Below, piece by piece: positions 31,645 to 38,911 of a DNA stretch of 43,115 bases. The number at the start of each line of letters is the position of its first letter. Position 1 is the stretch's first letter. The position numbers were made by a program, and so were the translations under genes. Where the stretch lies: contig JAKVBV010000020.1 of assembly GCA_022446965.1 (NCBI GenBank), forward strand, positions 1-43,115. The letters run 5' to 3'. Below the pieces are notes generated by a model that worked only from the letters and a program-made list of their open reading frames with translations, had not been told where the DNA came from and searched no databases. This DNA is from Phycisphaerales bacterium (GTDB lineage: Bacteria > Planctomycetota > Phycisphaerae > Phycisphaerales > SM1A02).

Positions 31645-33957
31645 ATGACTTCGAATCGAACAGCGGTACATCCATCACATCTGATCACCTCGATCCTCGC
31701 ACTGGGGATTGCGAGTACGGGCCTTGCCGACTCAATCACGCTTCTGGATCAGGTCGGCCCCATGGACGGCTCAGCCCTGACCGGCGGCTTGAGCGCGTCG
31801 CAGTACTTTGAGGAGGCCTATACGGCCTACGACATCGCGACCATCGACGACTTCATGAATGACGCCGGAGCGATTGCAACGCAGGTGTCAGGCGCTTTGG
31901 GTGGCTGGAACGGCTACGCCGGCATCGACGGCGTGACCGGCGTGCAGGTGAACTTCTACAACACGCTAATGGAAGCTGGCGAGAACCTCGTAGGCTATGT
32001 GAGTGAAGACTTCGCCGGCACACCAACAGGTGATCCTGAATGGACCCACGACTCGGATCTCCTCACATTCAACGGCAATTGGATCATCAACGGTGACCGA
32101 CAGTCCGTGGCGATCATTCCGGTCAATGAGTTTGCGGCCAATGGCCAGACGGGCATCGTGCAGTCGTCACTTGGCGACGGCATATCGTGGCAGGCCAATC
32201 CCAACGGCGGCTTCGGCTTCGGCCCGTATCAGGAATCGGCCACCAATGCGGCCCTCCGCGTGATGGGCAGCGAAGGCGATCCATGCAACGCCAACCTCCC
32301 CGAAAACTGCACGGCCGACGTGAACGCTGACAACGTAGTCAACGTGGATGACCTTCTGGCCGTCATCAGTACGTTCGGCGATGCTGGCGACGGCACCTAC
32401 CGCCCACTGGGCGACTGTGCCCCACTGCCCAACGGCGACTGTCTCGTGAATGTCGACGACGTTCTGGCCGTCATCAGTGGCTTCGGCGCTGACTGCACGC
32501 CCAGTGGCGCCTGCTGCGCCGGCTTCGACCCCTGCACTGTGCAAACACAGGCTGACTGTGACGCCATAGGTGGTACATACGCCGGTGATGACACCGATTG
32601 CGGTGTGTGCACCTGGGGTGCCTGCTGCGATGCGGCCGGCAACTGTGTGGAAGACAGCGGCGATAACTGCACCGCCTCAGGTGGCGTGTTCAACGACGGC
32701 ATGACCTGCGACGAAGCGAACTGCCAGCCAATCATCGGTGCCTGCTGCGTGGATGCGCAGACCTGCCTTGATGCGGTGGACCCGGTCACCTGCGACGCCT
32801 TCGGTGGCGAGTTCGTGGGCGACGGCTCCACGTGTGCAACCGCACCGTGCGGATGGCCCGGCTGTGACAATGATGACACCGCAGAGGGTATCCCCTGTCA
32901 AGGCGACACCGACGGTGACTTCTATGACGAGAATGGCGGCAACAACTCGGATCCCCCGTCCTTCGGCAACATCGCCGTGGATGAAACGATCTGCGGCACG
33001 ATGTCCACGTTCACGTGCATTGGATGCGGTACGGACGGCACCGACGTGACTTATCGCGACACCGACTGGTACGCCTTCAGCAATGCCGATGGCGGCACGT
33101 ACACCGTCAGCGGTGGCGGCCAGGGGCCACTGGTCATCGCCATCATTCGGTTGTCCACGGGTAGTTTCGAAGGCTACGTGTTCACCGAAACCTACGCCCA
33201 AGACAGCGTCACCGTCACCATCGGTGCCGGCGACGACTATGCGGTGTGGGTGGGCCACGACTGGAACTCCGGAATTGAAGTGCCTTGTGACAGTGGCCTG
33301 AACGAGTACACCGTCAACTTGACGCGTGTCGATGCCCCCGTTGCTGCGTGCTGTATGGGCCTCGAGTGCGTCGGCGACCTGAACCCGACCGACTGCCTAG
33401 CTGAAGGCGGCGAGTACGTGGCTGGCGAATCCTGCGCGACCTACGCCTGTCCTGAGGCCTACGAAGGCTGCACCACGGGCAACGGTCAGGATCCGACGCT
33501 CTCAGGTTGGTGGGCCGGCACGTCCGACACGGGCACCGGGTACATCCGGTACGAAGACATCGCCGCCGACACCGTGTCGAGCGTACGTGTCTGGGGCATC
33601 ACCGCCTTCTACAGCGGTGGCTGGAGCGCCTGTTCAGATACCGAGATGTCGTTCGATGCATCACTGCACGAAGACGACGGCACCGGCTACCCCGGCACCG
33701 TGACGGGCGAACTGATCGGCCATGTGGCCGACCAAGCCCCGCTCGATGTCGATCTGGGCGCCTACACCCTGCACCGATTCGACATGCCGCTGATGGCCAG
33801 TACGCCCAGCCGCTGGCTCAGAGTCACGTCCAATGGCAACAACTGCTGGTTCCTCTGGCTGAGCGCCAGCGCTGATGGCGAGGGTACAAGTCTGCTCGAC
33901 AACAACGGCACGTGGGAAACCGCAGCCCGTGATCTGGCGATCTGCATCTCGCCCTGA
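31645..33957 (+). CDS. Secreted dockerin-like protein with Cys-rich GACC repeats
   Basis: A 770-residue exported protein; signal peptide about 1-29 (ILALGIASTGLADS). Residues 30-210 form a beta-rich domain with no family recognised. Residues 222-284 contain two dockerin-type calcium loops (DVNADNVVNVDDLLAVISTFG and a second copy ending AVISGFG), a hallmark of Phycisphaerae proteins. Four Cys-rich repeats follow (about 288-322, 326-360, 365-402 and 568-602), each starting with (G/A)ACC and containing a GG-aromatic turn and spaced cysteines. Between the third and fourth, residues 440-565 look like a pre-peptidase C-terminal-type beta-sandwich (DTDWYAF). The C-terminal 160 residues form another beta-rich domain. 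GGGAGAG precedes the start. Role unknown; probably cell-surface or extracellular. Confidence 0.8.
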   Translation: MTSNRTAVHPSHLITSILALGIASTGLADSITLLDQVGPMDGSALTGGLSASQYFEEAYTAYDIATIDDFMNDAGAIATQVSGALGGWNGYAGIDGVTGVQVNFYNTLMEAGENLVGYVSEDFAGTPTGDPEWTHDSDLLTFNGNWIINGDRQSVAIIPVNEFAANGQTGIVQSSLGDGISWQANPNGGFGFGPYQESATNAALRVMGSEGDPCNANLPENCTADVNADNVVNVDDLLAVISTFGDAGDGTYRPLGDCAPLPNGDCLVNVDDVLAVISGFGADCTPSGACCAGFDPCTVQTQADCDAIGGTYAGDDTDCGVCTWGACCDAAGNCVEDSGDNCTASGGVFNDGMTCDEANCQPIIGACCVDAQTCLDAVDPVTCDAFGGEFVGDGSTCATAPCGWPGCDNDDTAEGIPCQGDTDGDFYDENGGNNSDPPSFGNIAVDETICGTMSTFTCIGCGTDGTDVTYRDTDWYAFSNADGGTYTVSGGGQGPLVIAIIRLSTGSFEGYVFTETYAQDSVTVTIGAGDDYAVWVGHDWNSGIEVPCDSGLNEYTVNLTRVDAPVAACCMGLECVGDLNPTDCLAEGGEYVAGESCATYACPEAYEGCTTGNGQDPTLSGWWAGTSDTGTGYIRYEDIAADTVSSVRVWGITAFYSGGWSACSDTEMSFDASLHEDDGTGYPGTVTGELIGHVADQAPLDVDLGAYTLHRFDMPLMASTPSRWLRVTSNGNNCWFLWLSASADGEGTSLLDNNGTWETAARDLAICISP

Positions 33958-34018: not shown

Positions 34019-35335
34019 TCATTCGGACTCCGGTGGAATGGCTCGACCGTGTGGATCGATCGCAGCGTCACCCGTGGCATCCGCGAGCTTCTTGGCGAGC
34101 GCTTCGGTGGTGACATGCTCGAGCCGCTCAGCAGCCGTGTGCAGATGGCTCGCGGGCACGTCCACTGTGGCAGCGAGATAGGTTTCCCACAGACGGTGTG
34201 CACGCACAAGGCCGGCTGCGGCGGCGTGCCCTTCATGGGTGAGTGACCACACACCGTGCTCGACAACTGCTAGCCCGCGACGCGTGAGCGTCGACAACAC
34301 CCGCTGCACACGACGTGGTCCCACGCGAACATCTCGTGCCAGAAGCTGTGGAATCTGATTCGCGGTCTGTTCGACATTGCTTTCTTCCAAGCGATAGATC
34401 AGGCCTAGGGCATCTTCGATCGCCACGTCAAAGACGAGACGCCGAAGCGCCAGTCGGCGTGCGATCACACCTCGACGAGGTGCACACAACAACGCCATGA
34501 CAAACACGACGCCGGACACGAAGGCCATGGCACCACTCGACGAGGTGTCGAATCCCTCGCCCAGAAACAGTTCTGGCACGTGCAGCGCCGCCCAGTGCCC
34601 GGCGATGGCGGTGATGACACCCAAAACCAGCGCAATTCCCACCACCACCGACAATGACCGACTGAGCAGCAGCGCTGTGGCGGCCGGCGCCACGATGAAG
34701 GTCACCGTCATCACGCTACCGACAGCCTCGAAGCAGGCCACGCATGTTGCGGCGGTCAACACCATCACGATCTGATGCATGAGCTCCGGCCGCATGCCCA
34801 GAGTCTGCGCCAAGGCCGGATCAAAGCAGGCGATCCGAAGTTCCTTCCACAGCACGGCAATTGTGACGATCGAACAGGCCAACACAACACAGATGGGGCC
34901 CATCGCTCGAGGCAAGTGCATGCCGAAAATGGCAACCGTGTCTAGCGGGGTGAGTTCCAGTGCGCCGTACAACACGGTGTGCGGATCGATGTTCACGGTG
35001 TCCGCTAGCTGCACCATCAGCACCAATCCCAAGGCGAAGAACACCGTGAATGCCGTGCCCATGGCAGCGCCGCGATCCACATTGGCGATGCGATGGAGCA
35101 CCTGCGTGAGCATCGCCACCAGTATTCCCGCGATCGCGGCGCCAGCGAACATCCACACGCTGTCCCGCGTGCCACTGATGAGAAAACCCACAGCGATACC
35201 CGGCAGCACGGCGTGCGAGATGGCGTCGCCCATGAGCCCCATGCCCCGCACCACGAGAAACACACCCGGCAAGGCGCAGGCCATCGCCGCGACACAGGCC
35301 ACTAGGACCACGAGCGTGTCGTAGTCCAAACTCAT
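34019..35335 (-). CDS. Metal ABC importer permease fused to a C-terminal DtxR/MntR-like sensor module (second permease)
   Basis: 438 residues from the ATG at 35335, which overlaps the upstream permease stop (ATGA). Residues 1-287 are an ABC-3 (Mn/Zn/Fe) permease with about eight helices, including GMGLMGDAISHAVLPGIAVG near the N-terminus and KELRIACFDPALAQTLGM. Residues 300-370 form a winged-helix domain (RRVQRVLSTLTRRGLAVVEH, then WSLTHEGHAAA). Residues 376-435 match the DtxR dimerisation/metal-binding helices: RAHRLWE (His380, Glu384), HTAAERLEH (His399, Glu403, Glu406, His407) and DPHGRAIP. The spacing of these residues equals that of the DtxR ligands. The module should face the cytosol. 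Function inferred: metal-responsive control of transport. Confidence 0.88.
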   Translation of the reverse strand: MSLDYDTLVVLVACVAAMACALPGVFLVVRGMGLMGDAISHAVLPGIAVGFLISGTRDSVWMFAGAAIAGILVAMLTQVLHRIANVDRGAAMGTAFTVFFALGLVLMVQLADTVNIDPHTVLYGALELTPLDTVAIFGMHLPRAMGPICVVLACSIVTIAVLWKELRIACFDPALAQTLGMRPELMHQIVMVLTAATCVACFEAVGSVMTVTFIVAPAATALLLSRSLSVVVGIALVLGVITAIAGHWAALHVPELFLGEGFDTSSSGAMAFVSGVVFVMALLCAPRRGVIARRLALRRLVFDVAIEDALGLIYRLEESNVEQTANQIPQLLARDVRVGPRRVQRVLSTLTRRGLAVVEHGVWSLTHEGHAAAAGLVRAHRLWETYLAATVDVPASHLHTAAERLEHVTTEALAKKLADATGDAAIDPHGRAIPPESE

Positions 35336-36639
35336 GGTGCCCGTCGCTCCAGCGGATGGGGGCTGCTCGGCAGTGCTTCGCCTGGATCCAGCAGTGCTTC
35401 CAATTCCGCCACGAGCTCGGCGTCGAGCACGTGTTCGATGAGATCGGCGTCGCGGTCCACATGAGACGGTGCGATGTCGGCGTGGTGAATCAGGAACAAT
35501 TCCCACAATCGGTGATTGCGGACAACGCGTCGTGCGCCCACTTCACCCAATGGCGTCAGCACCCACCCCTCCGGATGCACGTCTAATTCGCCCGATCGCA
35601 CGGCGCGGCGCAGTTCTCGCTGCAGGGCCGAGGCACGCCATCGCCGATTCGCGTGCAACTGGTTCAAAGCGACATGTGTTCCGGGCGAACCGCATTCCAA
35701 CATGGCTCTCAACAGGTGCTGTCGTTCCACGCGGCGACGCAGAGCCATGCCCCGCCACCATCGTTGCGTAAGTCCATGTCGCCGCCCGCAGGCCATGCTC
35801 AACGCAAAGCAACAACCTGTGACAAGCACGATCACGGCACCGGCTGGAAGATCTGCGTGCATCGCACTGATCGTGGATCCCATCCAACCCGAGACGGCCC
35901 CGATGCCGCCGGCCCAACACATGGTGGCGATGAAGCCGTCTGTCCAGAATCGCGCCGCCGCTGCAGGAATGATGAGCAGGGCAATCATGAGGATCAGACC
36001 CACCGCCTGCAGGCCGATCACGATCACCGCCACGGCCAGCATCATGAGCACGGCATCGAGCAAGGCAACTGGTCGCCCGATCGACGCGGCAAACTGCTCG
36101 TCGAAGCACAGCAGACGAAAGTCCTTAGCCAAGGCCAGCGTCATAGCGATCACGACGGCAGCCCCCAACCCAATGATCAAGGCATCAACCCGCACCATCG
36201 ATGCGGTCTTGCCGAAGATGAACCCTTCGAGGCCCGCCTGATTTCCACTGGGCAGGTTGAGTGCGATGCCCAGTAGCGCAATACCCAATCCGAAGGAACT
36301 ACCCAGGACGACCCCCATGATGGCGTCGTCCTTCAATCCACTGGCCCGACGAAGCACCGGCACCAACCACGCCGCGAGCAGGCCGGTAACCGTGGCGCCC
36401 AGCAGCAATCCGGGCAGTGACTTTCCCGTGCCGCCGCACGCCTGCATCACGAGAAATGCGGCAACCACACCCGGCAAGGTGGCGTGTGACACCACGTCGC
36501 CGAGCAGCGATCGCTTTCGCAACAACAGCAACGTGCCGCATACGCCTGCAGCCACACCCAGCGTGGTCGTACCCAGCACCACGAGCGCCGTGTTGTAGTC
36601 CTGCAACAGCAGAACATCGAGCAGTCCCCGCTCACCCAT
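35332..36639 (-). CDS. Metal ABC importer permease fused to a C-terminal DtxR/MntR-like sensor module (first permease)
   Basis: 435 residues. Residues 1-285 are an ABC-3 permease, with RKRSLLGDVVSHATLPGVVA near the start and KDFRLLCFDEQFAASIGRP as the ATPase-coupling segment. The C-terminus parallels the neighbouring permease: a winged helix at about 305-368 (SALQRELRRAVRSGELDVH, then WVLTPLGEVGARR), followed by VVRNHRLWE (His376, Glu380) and VDRDADLIEH (Asp395, Asp399, Glu402, His403). Ligand spacing again matches DtxR, with Asp replacing two positions. It overlaps the ATPase gene by 8 bases and the second permease by 4. The two permeases probably form the heterodimeric channel. Confidence 0.88.
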   Translation of the reverse strand: MGERGLLDVLLLQDYNTALVVLGTTTLGVAAGVCGTLLLLRKRSLLGDVVSHATLPGVVAAFLVMQACGGTGKSLPGLLLGATVTGLLAAWLVPVLRRASGLKDDAIMGVVLGSSFGLGIALLGIALNLPSGNQAGLEGFIFGKTASMVRVDALIIGLGAAVVIAMTLALAKDFRLLCFDEQFAASIGRPVALLDAVLMMLAVAVIVIGLQAVGLILMIALLIIPAAAARFWTDGFIATMCWAGGIGAVSGWMGSTISAMHADLPAGAVIVLVTGCCFALSMACGRRHGLTQRWWRGMALRRRVERQHLLRAMLECGSPGTHVALNQLHANRRWRASALQRELRRAVRSGELDVHPEGWVLTPLGEVGARRVVRNHRLWELFLIHHADIAPSHVDRDADLIEHVLDAELVAELEALLDPGEALPSSPHPLERRAP

Positions 36640-37465
36640 TCGACGATCTCGTCGTCCCCGATGCCAACTGCCCCAGTGCCGAAGCCGCCTGCTCCAGGAG
36701 TGTCAGGCGACCGCCGTAGGTAGCACGAAGATGCTCGGCCGTGAACGCATCGCCCACCGGACCCGCAGCCACCACACGCATGTTCAAGAGCACGGTCCAG
36801 TCGAAGTACTCGGTCACGGTCTGCAGATCGTGATGCACCACGACGACAGTGCGGCCCTGGTCACGCAGTGCACGAAGGACATCCACGATGGCCTGCTCAG
36901 TGGCCGCGTCCACCGACGCGAATGGTTCGTCCATCAAGTACAGATCTGCATCCTGCACCAGCGCCCGGGCGAGGAACACCCGTTGCTGCTGGCCACCTGA
37001 CAATTGGCTGATCTGCCGGTGCGCAAAAGCCTCGAGCCCCACCCGCTCGAGTGCTTCCATCGCTTGTTCGCGTTGCGATCGCCCCACCGGTTTGCACCAT
37101 CCCAGTCGACGGTATGTACCCATGGCCACCACATCGAGCGCACTGACGGGAAAGGACCAGTCCACAGACTCACGCTGGGGCACATAGCCCACGCGGGCGT
37201 GTTGCTTGCGATAGGGCTGGCCGAACACCCGCACCTCGCCCGACACCGCGGGCACCAGATCGAGACACGCCTTGAGCAGCGTGCTCTTGCCGGCCCCGTT
37301 GGGTCCGACGATGCAGGCAAGCTTGCCCTGAGGGATGTCCAGATCGACATCCCACAGCACGGGCTTGCGATGCCACGCCACTGTGAGATCGTGGATCGAC
37401 AGCGGCGCGGCATCGTCATGCTCGCCCCCTCGCGGCACGCGGGAATCGGCGTGCGGGCGTGCCAC
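36632..37465 (-). CDS. Metal ABC importer ATP-binding subunit
   Basis: 277-residue ATPase of a Mn/Zn/Fe-type ABC importer. Walker A is GPNGAGKST (54-62, Lys60), the signature LSGGQQQR (155-162), Walker B DLYLMDEP (174-181) and the switch His211 in VVVVHHD. VDWSFPVSALDVVAMG is typical of the manganese/zinc/iron subgroup. It starts at GTG 37465, one base after the stop of the binding-protein gene. The first 20 residues are a charged extension. The TGA overlaps the next gene's start by 8 bases. Confidence 0.95.
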   Translation of the reverse strand: MARPHADSRVPRGGEHDDAAPLSIHDLTVAWHRKPVLWDVDLDIPQGKLACIVGPNGAGKSTLLKACLDLVPAVSGEVRVFGQPYRKQHARVGYVPQRESVDWSFPVSALDVVAMGTYRRLGWCKPVGRSQREQAMEALERVGLEAFAHRQISQLSGGQQQRVFLARALVQDADLYLMDEPFASVDAATEQAIVDVLRALRDQGRTVVVVHHDLQTVTEYFDWTVLLNMRVVAAGPVGDAFTAEHLRATYGGRLTLLEQAASALGQLASGTTRSSNG

Positions 37466-37466
37466 T

Positions 37467-38423
37467 TCAGTGCCCGGTGGCGTCGTGGTCGTTCACACCG
37501 GCAACGAACGGCACGATGCCGCCGAGCGCCTTGGTGATCGTCTCACCGTTGTGCGCCATCATGCCCATGTAGGTGCCTTCGCGCGTGCCAGGCTTGCCCA
37601 TCGCATCGGAGAACAGTTCACCACCGACGGTCACGGTATGACCACGGGCTGCTGCACCTTCGATGAGTGCACGCACGTACTTGTCCGACACACTCGACTC
37701 GACGAAGACGGCCGGAATCTTCTGCTCGACGAGGATGTCCACCAAACCGTTGACATCGGCGAGGCCGGCTTCGGACTCGGTGCTGATGCCCTGTACGCCG
37801 ATCACTTCGATGTTGTAGGCACGGCCGAAGTAGCTGAAGGCATCATGGGCGGTCACCAGCACGCGACGGTTACGAGGCACGCTGCGAAGGGAGTTGCGGA
37901 CGAAGTTGTCCAGCACGTCGAGCTTGCGCTTGTACACCTTGGCGTTGGCTTGGTACGCAGCGCAGTTGGCCGGATCGGCTTCGCACATTGATTTGGTGAT
38001 GCCGTCAGCCACCTGCATCCATGCCCGCACATCCATCCACACATGTGGATCGGGGTGGCCTTCATGTTCGGGGTCGGCAAGTAGGATCTCCTTCTTGAGC
38101 ACCTCCGCCACGGGGCGAACAAGCTTGCCCTGTTCGGCGGCTCGCTTGAAGACTTCATCCATGCGGCCTTCCAGCATCAGACCGTTGTAGAGCACCAGGT
38201 CGGCCGCCATGATGCGGCGGACATCCGAGGCTCGCGGGGTATACAGGTGGGGATCGACGCCTTCGCCACAGAGCGTGGTCACCGTGGCGTGCTCGCCGCC
38301 GATCTGTGCAGCGACATCACCAACCATGCCGGTGGTGGCGACAATCTTGAGCCCTGCCATGGCCGGCACTGCCGTGGCGAGCAGCATGAGGCAGGCGATG
38401 AATCGAAGAACGGAGGCAGACAT
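37467..38423 (-). CDS. Metal ABC importer periplasmic binding protein (TroA/ZnuA family)
   Basis: A 318-residue cluster A-I binding protein. The start at 38423 has AAGGAG upstream and opens a signal peptide (FIACLMLLATAVPAMA). Candidate metal ligands are His59 (VDPHLYTP), His127 (HPDPHVWMD), His193 (TAHDAFSYFG) and Asp273 (LFSDAMG), the TroA-type set. Dedicated Mn binders such as PsaA have Glu in place of the third His, so Mn, Zn or Fe all remain possible from this site. The short His/Asp-rich end (NDHDATGH) may also bind metal. First gene of the four-gene importer unit, divergent from mntR. Confidence 0.93.
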   Translation of the reverse strand: MSASVLRFIACLMLLATAVPAMAGLKIVATTGMVGDVAAQIGGEHATVTTLCGEGVDPHLYTPRASDVRRIMAADLVLYNGLMLEGRMDEVFKRAAEQGKLVRPVAEVLKKEILLADPEHEGHPDPHVWMDVRAWMQVADGITKSMCEADPANCAAYQANAKVYKRKLDVLDNFVRNSLRSVPRNRRVLVTAHDAFSYFGRAYNIEVIGVQGISTESEAGLADVNGLVDILVEQKIPAVFVESSVSDKYVRALIEGAAARGHTVTVGGELFSDAMGKPGTREGTYMGMMAHNGETITKALGGIVPFVAGVNDHDATGH

Positions 38424-38439
38424 CGGGCACAGGCTCCTT

Positions 38440-38480
38440 GAAGTGTGCAAAGTGAACATTAGTAACATATGCTACACTTC
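38440..38480. promoter_or_regulatory. Candidate MntR operator and divergent promoters
   Basis: The 86-bp region between the importer unit and mntR holds GTAACAT-ATGCTAC (38462-38475, 6 of 7 arm bases match). It is flanked by a wider inverted repeat, GAAGTGT (38440-38446) and ACACTTC (38474-38480). On the minus strand TTGCTG and TAGCAT are 17 bases apart, the latter inside the palindrome, a plausible importer promoter. Repressor binding here would block RNA polymerase. The match to known MntR boxes was not tested. Confidence 0.5.
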
Positions 38481-38509
38481 TCCCCTTCATTCAGCAACCG
38501 GAACAGGCC

Positions 38510-38911
38510 ATGGGCACCCAACCCACCCCATTCAGCAAGACCCGCGCCGATCACGCCTCGGAAACCGCCGAGGACTACGTGGAGGCGATTTCCGACATCC
38601 TGCAGCGTCAATCCGAGTGCCGAGTGAAGGACCTCGCGGCGCACATGGAAGTGAGTCACGTCACAGTGACACGCACCCTGCAGCGCCTGTGTGGCGAACG
38701 TCTGGTGGACAAGGACCCCTACGGCCCCTGCCGCCTGACTGAGTCAGGTCGACGCCTCGCCCGGCAGTCACGCGAGCGTCACGCCATCGTGCTGGCCTTC
38801 CTCAAGGCGATCGGCGTGCCCGAGCACGAGGCGATCGCCGATGCTGAAGGCATGGAGCATCACGTGGGCAAGGCCACGTTGATGGCGATGCGGCAGCACC
38901 TCGATCGCTGA
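38510..38911 (+). CDS. mntR: Manganese-type metal-dependent repressor MntR
   Basis: 133-residue DtxR-superfamily regulator without an SH3-like third domain, as in MntR. The winged helix spans about 20-85 (recognition helix near HVTVTRTLQRL). Metal ligands align with MntR: Asp22 and Glu25 in AEDYVEAI, His91 in ERHAIV, and Glu113, Glu116 and His117 in AEGMEHH. Asp22 rather than Met marks a manganese-type sensor. It should bind the 38462-38475 palindrome when metal is replete and repress the importer. It lies 86 bp from the divergent importer operon. Confidence 0.92.
   Translation: MGTQPTPFSKTRADHASETAEDYVEAISDILQRQSECRVKDLAAHMEVSHVTVTRTLQRLCGERLVDKDPYGPCRLTESGRRLARQSRERHAIVLAFLKAIGVPEHEAIADAEGMEHHVGKATLMAMRQHLDR

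Follow-up and report, generated by a model that had tools for sequence, protein, structure and literature searches.

The window analyzed here is the whole of contig JAKVBV010000020.1 (43,115 nucleotides) from a Phycisphaerales bacterium of the phylum Planctomycetota, whose 2.24-Mb genome is 97% complete. On its minus strand, positions 34019–38423 encode a metal importer of four genes, comprising a substrate-binding protein, an ATPase and two ABC-3 permeases, and both permeases end in a genuine DtxR-type domain, on which Pfam, a sequence search of the PDB, AlphaFold2 and VIA-align agree. Judged by sequence comparison across relatives, such tails keep the metal-binding and dimerization half of the domain and have lost its recognizable DNA-binding half. 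On balance, we consider it probable that these cytosolic, DtxR-derived tails sense metal and throttle a PsaBC/MntBC-type importer in place.

Both Permeases End in a DtxR-Type Domain

The ABC-3 family (PF00950) matches permease 1 (35332–36639, minus strand, 435 amino acids; family A below) with 181 bits and permease 2 (34019–35335, minus strand, 438 amino acids; family B) with 136 bits, the cut-off being 20.1. At the C terminus, the metal-binding and dimerization domain of DtxR (PF02742; cut-off 27) scores 52 bits in permease 1 (E 7e-14) and 65 bits in permease 2 (E 5e-18). A first-pass annotation made from the letters alone had described two adjacent permeases with DtxR-type C termini at these positions, and both Pfam domains confirm it. 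The 12 putative metal ligands that it named are likewise all in place: H376, E380, D395, D399, E402 and H403 in permease 1 and H380, E384, H399, E403, E406 and H407 in permease 2. As that annotation stated, they reproduce the spacing of the DtxR ligand set; they do not reproduce its residue identities, because residue 102 of DtxR itself is a cysteine. A seventh candidate ligand lies on helix 1, as H308 in permease 1 and D308 in permease 2. In the sequence search, the tail of permease 2 matched chain 8pvt, by its title Deinococcus DR2539, at E 1e-13 and with the same six residues in register.

The AlphaFold2 models have a predicted local distance difference test score of 92.4 for permease 1 and 90.1 for permease 2, and both show a helix–helix–helix–wing arrangement followed by the dimer/metal helices. 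In both, the last membrane helix ends at residue 284, and helix 1 begins at 290 and reaches 316 or 318. In permease 1, helix 1 and the winged helix, including H308, span residues 290–361 (35557–35772, minus strand), with helices at 290–316, 325–331 and 336–348 and strands at 352–355 and 358–361, and the metal-binding and dimerization half with the 52-bit PF02742 match spans residues 362–418 (35386–35556, minus strand). The corresponding parts of permease 2 are residues 290–365, including D308 (34241–34468, minus strand), and residues 366–434 with the 65-bit match (34034–34240, minus strand). Structural comparison bore out the predicted likeness to MntR and IdeR: VIA-align superposed the permease 1 tail (residues 292–418) on Escherichia coli MntR (2h09) at Z 13.8 and 3.2 Å over 126 residues, and the permease 2 tail (residues 297–438) on IdeR (1fx7) at Z 18.5 and 2.1 Å over 136 residues and on a manganese-bound repressor (5zr6) at Z 18.5 and 1.6 Å over 127. 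The channel parts matched PsaBC (7kyp) at Z 33.9 and 31.3 for permeases 1 and 2, respectively. PF01325, the Pfam model of the DNA-binding half, was found in the neighboring MntR and in neither permease tail.

Putative Metal Ligands Are Conserved across Relatives

We compared the tails with those of 40 loci from the window's order, 19 from the wider phylum (a further region was just 100 bases long) and 80 named loci. The last are the top 80 of at least 546 when sorted by similarity to the permease 1 tail, so that proportions among them carry a sampling bias; 12 tails were assigned to family A or B by similarity. Among 122 family-A tails, the equivalents of H376, E380, E402 and H403 were retained in 121, 119, 122 and 120, respectively, and all 122 had Asp or His at position 395 and Asp or Glu at 399. 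Among 92 family-B tails, 5 of which lack the metal half, the equivalent of H380 was present in 90, and Glu, His, Glu and His occupied the other four fixed positions in 87 each; position 403 was variable (Glu in 53, Met in 13, His in 8, Asp in 7 and a few others). In thinned whole-protein alignments, H376, E380 and E402 were invariant in 65 family-A rows and H403 was kept in 64 of them, and H380, E384, H399, E406 and H407 were invariant in 37 family-B rows, with D308 in 36 of the 37. A coupled exchange of ligands (H308/D395/D399 against N/H/E), seen as raw counts of 67 and 26 among the 122, was considered but proved not to be independent on the tree and was dropped as evidence.

The DNA-Binding Half Has Decayed

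PF02742 was present in all 67 family-A and all 38 family-B tails examined with profiles, in 92 of the 95 tails in a second set drawn in another way and in all 82 stand-alone regulators. PF01325 at E 0.01 was found in each of the 82 regulators, which come from the same loci, versus none of the 67 and none of the 38 tails. In the second set, 2 of the 95 tails matched it at E up to 0.1 (best 0.0068), and in 61 genomes of the window's order, for which matches at E 0.001 were listed, none lay inside any of 66 tails. The underlying alignments comprise the window's protein with 66 of the 75 family-A proteins that qualified in the named loci (A2), the window's protein with all 36 listed B proteins and the B protein of L215 (A3) and 82 of 84 stand-alone rows (A4); a further one (A1) comprises 25 of 38 A tails from the thinned set. 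The rows from L195 and L215, which are fragments of permease tails at contig edges, were left out of A4, as a third such fragment, from L132, had been earlier; all three still count in the totals of stand-alone regulators (41 short and 44 long) and are absent from the matched triples used below.

In 28 genomes with an A tail, a B tail and a short MntR, mean pairwise identity over the turn and recognition helix was 0.68 for MntR, 0.24 for A and 0.16 for B, and over the metal helix 0.65, 0.68 and 0.54. The ratio of the two was 1.06, 0.35 and 0.30, and the range for MntR over 200 half-samples did not overlap with A or B. The contrast was weaker for the long IdeR-type regulators, compared in the 14 of 18 genomes whose B tail has a metal half: 0.52, 0.30 and 0.22 for the recognition helix and 0.67, 0.69 and 0.51 for the metal helix in regulator, A and B. 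The distance from helix 1 to the end of the wing has modes of 51 residues in MntR, 54 in A and 52 in B, and is shortened to 36–40 residues in the A tails of L120, L121, L126 and L226 and in the B tails of L098, L101, L103 and L106, the latter all from one genus. These shortened tails have all seven ligand positions filled, except for Thr in place of E380 in the A tail of L120. A loss of positive charge from the winged helix was considered and rejected, the net charge not being lowered. In L133–L137, we observed the reverse decay, the tail of permease B stopping before the metal half and A being complete.

A Free MntR and Its Candidate Operator Usually Accompany the Fusions

Divergent from the operon, a stand-alone MntR is encoded at 38510–38911 on the plus strand. 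Both PF01325 and PF02742 were found in it, and it passes the NCBIfam MntR equivalog with 154.5 bits against a cut-off of 153. The intergenic stretch 38424–38509 separates it from the operon, which is led on the minus side by the substrate-binding protein, and contains the candidate MntR operator AGTAACATATGCTACA (38461–38476, no strand assigned) with two mismatches to TGTAGC-N4-GCTACA. With at most two mismatches, this palindrome occurred in 21 of 27 stretches between a short MntR and a substrate-binding protein, compared with a mean of 0.2 and a maximum of 3 after shuffling; the loci of two of the 27 (L096 and L097) have no tails. Only 0.5% of shuffles of the window's own intergenic stretch gave as good a match; across the window the site is unexceptional, with 14 matches at up to three mismatches versus 10 expected. 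A genome-wide MntR regulon drawn from the box was abandoned as uninformative (64 places at up to two mismatches versus 511 for a control pattern).

By our own reading of the profile listings, a PF01325 protein outside the tails occurs in 37 of the 39 fusion-bearing genomes of the order; the remaining two are G320, with its locus at a contig edge, and G313, which is 78% complete. At loci with A, B and a regulator, the partner was of the short MntR type in 28 cases and of the long IdeR type in 18. With its own MntR and a candidate box, the operon would not need the tail as its repressor, although the tail may still act as one.

Both Permeases Are Fused in Most Fusion-Bearing Genomes of the Order

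By the same reading, at least one fused permease was found in 39 of 61 sampled genomes of the window's order, together holding 66 tails. Both permeases were fused in 27 of the 39, only the first in 3 and only the second in 3, and 6 had a single permease frame, making double fusion the commonest layout in the order. The single-frame loci include L118, which ends at the contig end, and L117, in which both permeases form one chain: a single open frame (L117:58–2634, minus strand) of 858 amino acids reads as permease A, DtxR tail and permease B, with the sensor in midchain. Among the 72 named loci showing two permeases, both were fused in 37 and only the first in 35; four of these 35 (L164, L175, L190 and L227) were called plain from a second permease that is broken or cut by the contig end. 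Without those four, loci with both fused and with the first only numbered 31 and 0 in Planctomycetota, 2 and 15 in Verrucomicrobiota and 0 and 14 in Bacteroidota. The dimer helices are conserved even in operons with a single tail.

The channel cores of A and B separate on a tree (2 label changes), and the core tree, many forks of which are unsupported and on which the plain label of L175 is unsure, shows at least 11 switches between fused and plain. Such repeated changes fit a regulatory add-on. In a tree of 79 domains from tails, regulators and other carriers, the 20 stand-alone regulators and the 59 other domains fall on two sides, with weak support (73/96).

The Importer Operon and Its Surroundings

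The neighboring genes of the operon abut or overlap. The substrate-binding protein (37467–38423, minus strand) is of the ZnuA/TroA family (PF01297, 270 bits), and its likely start is an ATG preceded by the ribosome-site sequence AAGGAG; it is ambiguous between zinc and manganese NCBIfam models, every one of which scores below its cut-off. The ATPase (36632–37465, minus strand; PF00005) has as its best NCBIfam model a manganese/iron ABC ATPase, at 234 bits and under the cut-off of 393. The frame of permease 2 can be read upstream as far as a GTG at 35506, and the ATG at 35335 overlaps the stop of permease 1 (ATGA). The two permeases are the sole ABC-3 matches of the genome, and PF02742 matches just three of its proteins, these two and MntR. 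No Nramp importer was matched in the same genome, and no manganese riboswitch (RF00080), both at E 0.001. The NCBIfam matches of MntR, the ATPase and the substrate-binding protein suggest that the substrate is probably manganese or manganese/iron.

Outside the operon, at 31645–33957 on the plus strand, lies a secreted-looking protein of 770 amino acids with, by eye, two dockerin-like stretches and Cys-rich repeats, in which Pfam found nothing at E 1e-5.

The Same Domain Occurs on Other Transport Proteins

Further carriers were collected through PF02742 matches in frames without ABC-3; found with one shared profile, they are kin by the design of the search, and their novelty lies in the placement of the domain. 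Ten proteins of about 333–381 amino acids (L232–L240 and L244; e.g., L232:2592–3611, plus strand) combine the DtxR metal half with FeoA. The four of them that were scanned scored 78–90 bits for PF02742 and 76–87 bits for FeoA, PF01325 being absent in three and below its cut-off in L240. FeoB lies directly downstream in all 10 loci, as judged by similarity to the genes of L232, where Pfam finds FeoB_N, Gate and FeoB_C. An N-terminal hydrophobic segment is evident by eye in 7 of the 10, and that of L244 resembles the last membrane helix of the permeases with the FxPRxG junction; a profile of the permease last helix plus tail matches L244 from profile position 18 of 182 with 119.5 bits.

Three ABC ATPases carry a C-terminal DtxR domain with 80–90 bits (L242:2835–3938, minus strand; L243:2083–3171, plus strand; L245:2082–3179, plus strand). 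The permeases beside them match FtsX in Pfam, and those of L243 and L245 also match MacB_PCD. By eye, all three ATPases have Cys at the position of DtxR residue 102 (ACQFEH, ACVLEH), and in L245 an ApbE/FMN_bind gene lies downstream.

Discussion

In DtxR and MntR, helix 1 becomes linked to the dimer/metal helices when metal is bound. We propose that at high cytosolic metal the permease tails would bind metal through their conserved His/Glu/Asp set, and that the bound metal would lock helix 1 against the dimer/metal helices in the same manner. Because helix 1 begins only a few residues after the last membrane helix, this closure could strain the contacts of the channel or the ATPase, and transport would be slowed or stopped, a trans-inhibition in place that would add to the usual repression exerted by the stand-alone MntR. 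That the effect would be inhibitory is suggested by analogy with MetNI and ModABC.

Several observations weigh against this proposal. Position 308 in A and position 403 in B vary, one or two of the fixed ligands are missing from 5 of the 122 A tails, 5 B tails have a winged helix and no metal half, and a test on independent pairs gave no support for coupled ligand changes (6 and 3 pairs, starred branches, p = 1). Many operons are single-tailed, only A having a tail in all 14 Bacteroidota loci and in 15 of 17 Verrucomicrobiota loci with an intact second permease, and for this reason a clamp between two tails within one transporter cannot be general. The missing PF01325 match could reflect divergence instead of lost function. 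The winged-helix fold persists in both models, the permease 2 tail fits DNA-bound IdeR structures, and the net charge of the winged-helix segment (+2.9 and +2.6 versus +2.3 and +1.9) is not lowered, so that the winged helix may contact nucleic acid or lipid. Finally, 6 of the 27 intergenic stretches lack the MntR box.

The tails might instead buffer metal, accept it where it leaves the channel or serve as domains for assembly, and exert no feedback on transport. Conserved ligands on a tail that comes and goes would fit a local acceptor equally well, and a structural or assembly role would suit the B tails of L133–L137, which have the winged helix only, for those rows. In regulators, the DtxR fold changes shape upon metal binding, and a shape-changing fold fused at helix 1 exceeds what a buffer needs; on this argument, which is not a test, we consider such roles rather unlikely. 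A smaller chance still is given to pairing of the tails with free MntR through the shared dimer fold, by which MntR would be held at the membrane and the state of the transporter would set transcription. The dimer/metal helices are about equally conserved in the tails and in MntR, which is often encoded next door; however, the regulators that accompany the tails come from two subfamilies (28 short, 18 long) without any matching change noticed in the tails, and the tails group apart from the regulators on the tree. The tether to MntR raised in the first-pass annotation is therefore weakly disfavored, the same tails standing beside both subfamilies. Of its other suggestions, gating of transport is the best supported, though unproven, and a tether to DNA was set aside, given that PF01325 was not found (0 of 67 and 0 of 38) that the recognition helix drifts and that the helix-turn-helix is shortened in a few lineages.

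The remaining alternative has a direct precedent in Chlamydia, where YtgCR (CT069) is a permease–DtxR fusion that is reportedly cleaved to give an iron-dependent repressor (PMC5599777, PMC7755916, PMC6504234). If the same happened here, the tails, once cut off the permeases, would work as metal-dependent repressors in the cytosol, and a winged helix and a dimer half are indeed present in the models. Several observations, in part indirect, argue against such release, which we regard as improbable: PF01325 is missing from all 67 and all 38 tails, the recognition helix is unconserved, the helix-turn-helix is shortened in a few lineages, and helix 1 starts five residues past the last membrane helix. 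M298, a possible internal start from which the tail of permease 1 could be released by translation, was rejected as such, since it is not conserved and Arg is the commonest residue at that position (29 of 67 rows). Moreover, the fusions here are accompanied by a stand-alone MntR and mostly by its box, whereas YtgR is described as the sole identified iron-dependent regulator of Chlamydia (PMC5599777, PMC7755916, PMC6504234).

We tentatively consider a broader scenario, possible rather than probable, in which one branch of the DtxR fold left transcription and became a general cytosolic metal gate, on one or both ABC-3 permeases, on FeoA proteins beside FeoB (several of which have a membrane-like N-terminal segment, in L244 apparently the last membrane helix of a permease) and on ABC ATPases with FtsX/MacB-like permeases. 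On this view, the cleaved YtgR of Chlamydia would either have regained DNA binding secondarily or preserve the original state.

Comparison with Known Systems

The permease–DtxR fusion itself is already known, with occurrences reported in 11 phyla (PMC5599777), and the view of the first-pass annotation that no functional work existed was mistaken in light of the reports on YtgCR (PMC5599777, PMC7755916, PMC6504234). YtgCR resembles the present system in joining an ABC-3-type permease to a C-terminal DtxR domain, with a helix-turn-helix described as DtxR-like (PMC5599777), within a four-gene metal importer operon. It is set apart, by description, in that one permease is fused and the tail is cleaved and represses genes; in the operon studied here both permeases are fused, the DNA-binding half goes unrecognized by Pfam, and a free MntR is present. 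Within the library searched, no paper was found that treats double fusions, transport gating by tails of this kind or DtxR–FeoA proteins anchored in the membrane, nor any that describes decay of the DNA-binding half with ligands kept, a coexisting MntR and operator, or ATPase carriers. What is new is thus the double fusion, the decay of the DNA-binding half with retained ligands, the coexistence with MntR and its operator, and the Feo and ATPase carriers.

With MntR, IdeR, DtxR and DR2539, the tails share the fold and the ligand positions; those proteins are soluble DNA-binding repressors, whereas the tails have no PF01325 match. PsaBC, MntBC and ZnuB have the same channel fold, to which each channel subunit here adds a putative sensing tail of about 145 residues. 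MetNI and ModABC also have an extra cytosolic domain, a regulatory one that senses the imported substrate and stops transport by trans-inhibition (PMC10710835); there it sits on the ATPase and has another fold, and here it sits on the permease and is DtxR-like. The only functional model found for permease–DtxR fusions is the cleaved repressor of Chlamydia. For the relatives examined, our comparisons predict otherwise, a metal sensor that is retained at the channel and governs its flux, for which the exact residues and truncation points are now named for testing. If this is true, transition-metal importers would join the small number of ABC importers known to contain a feedback domain of their own.

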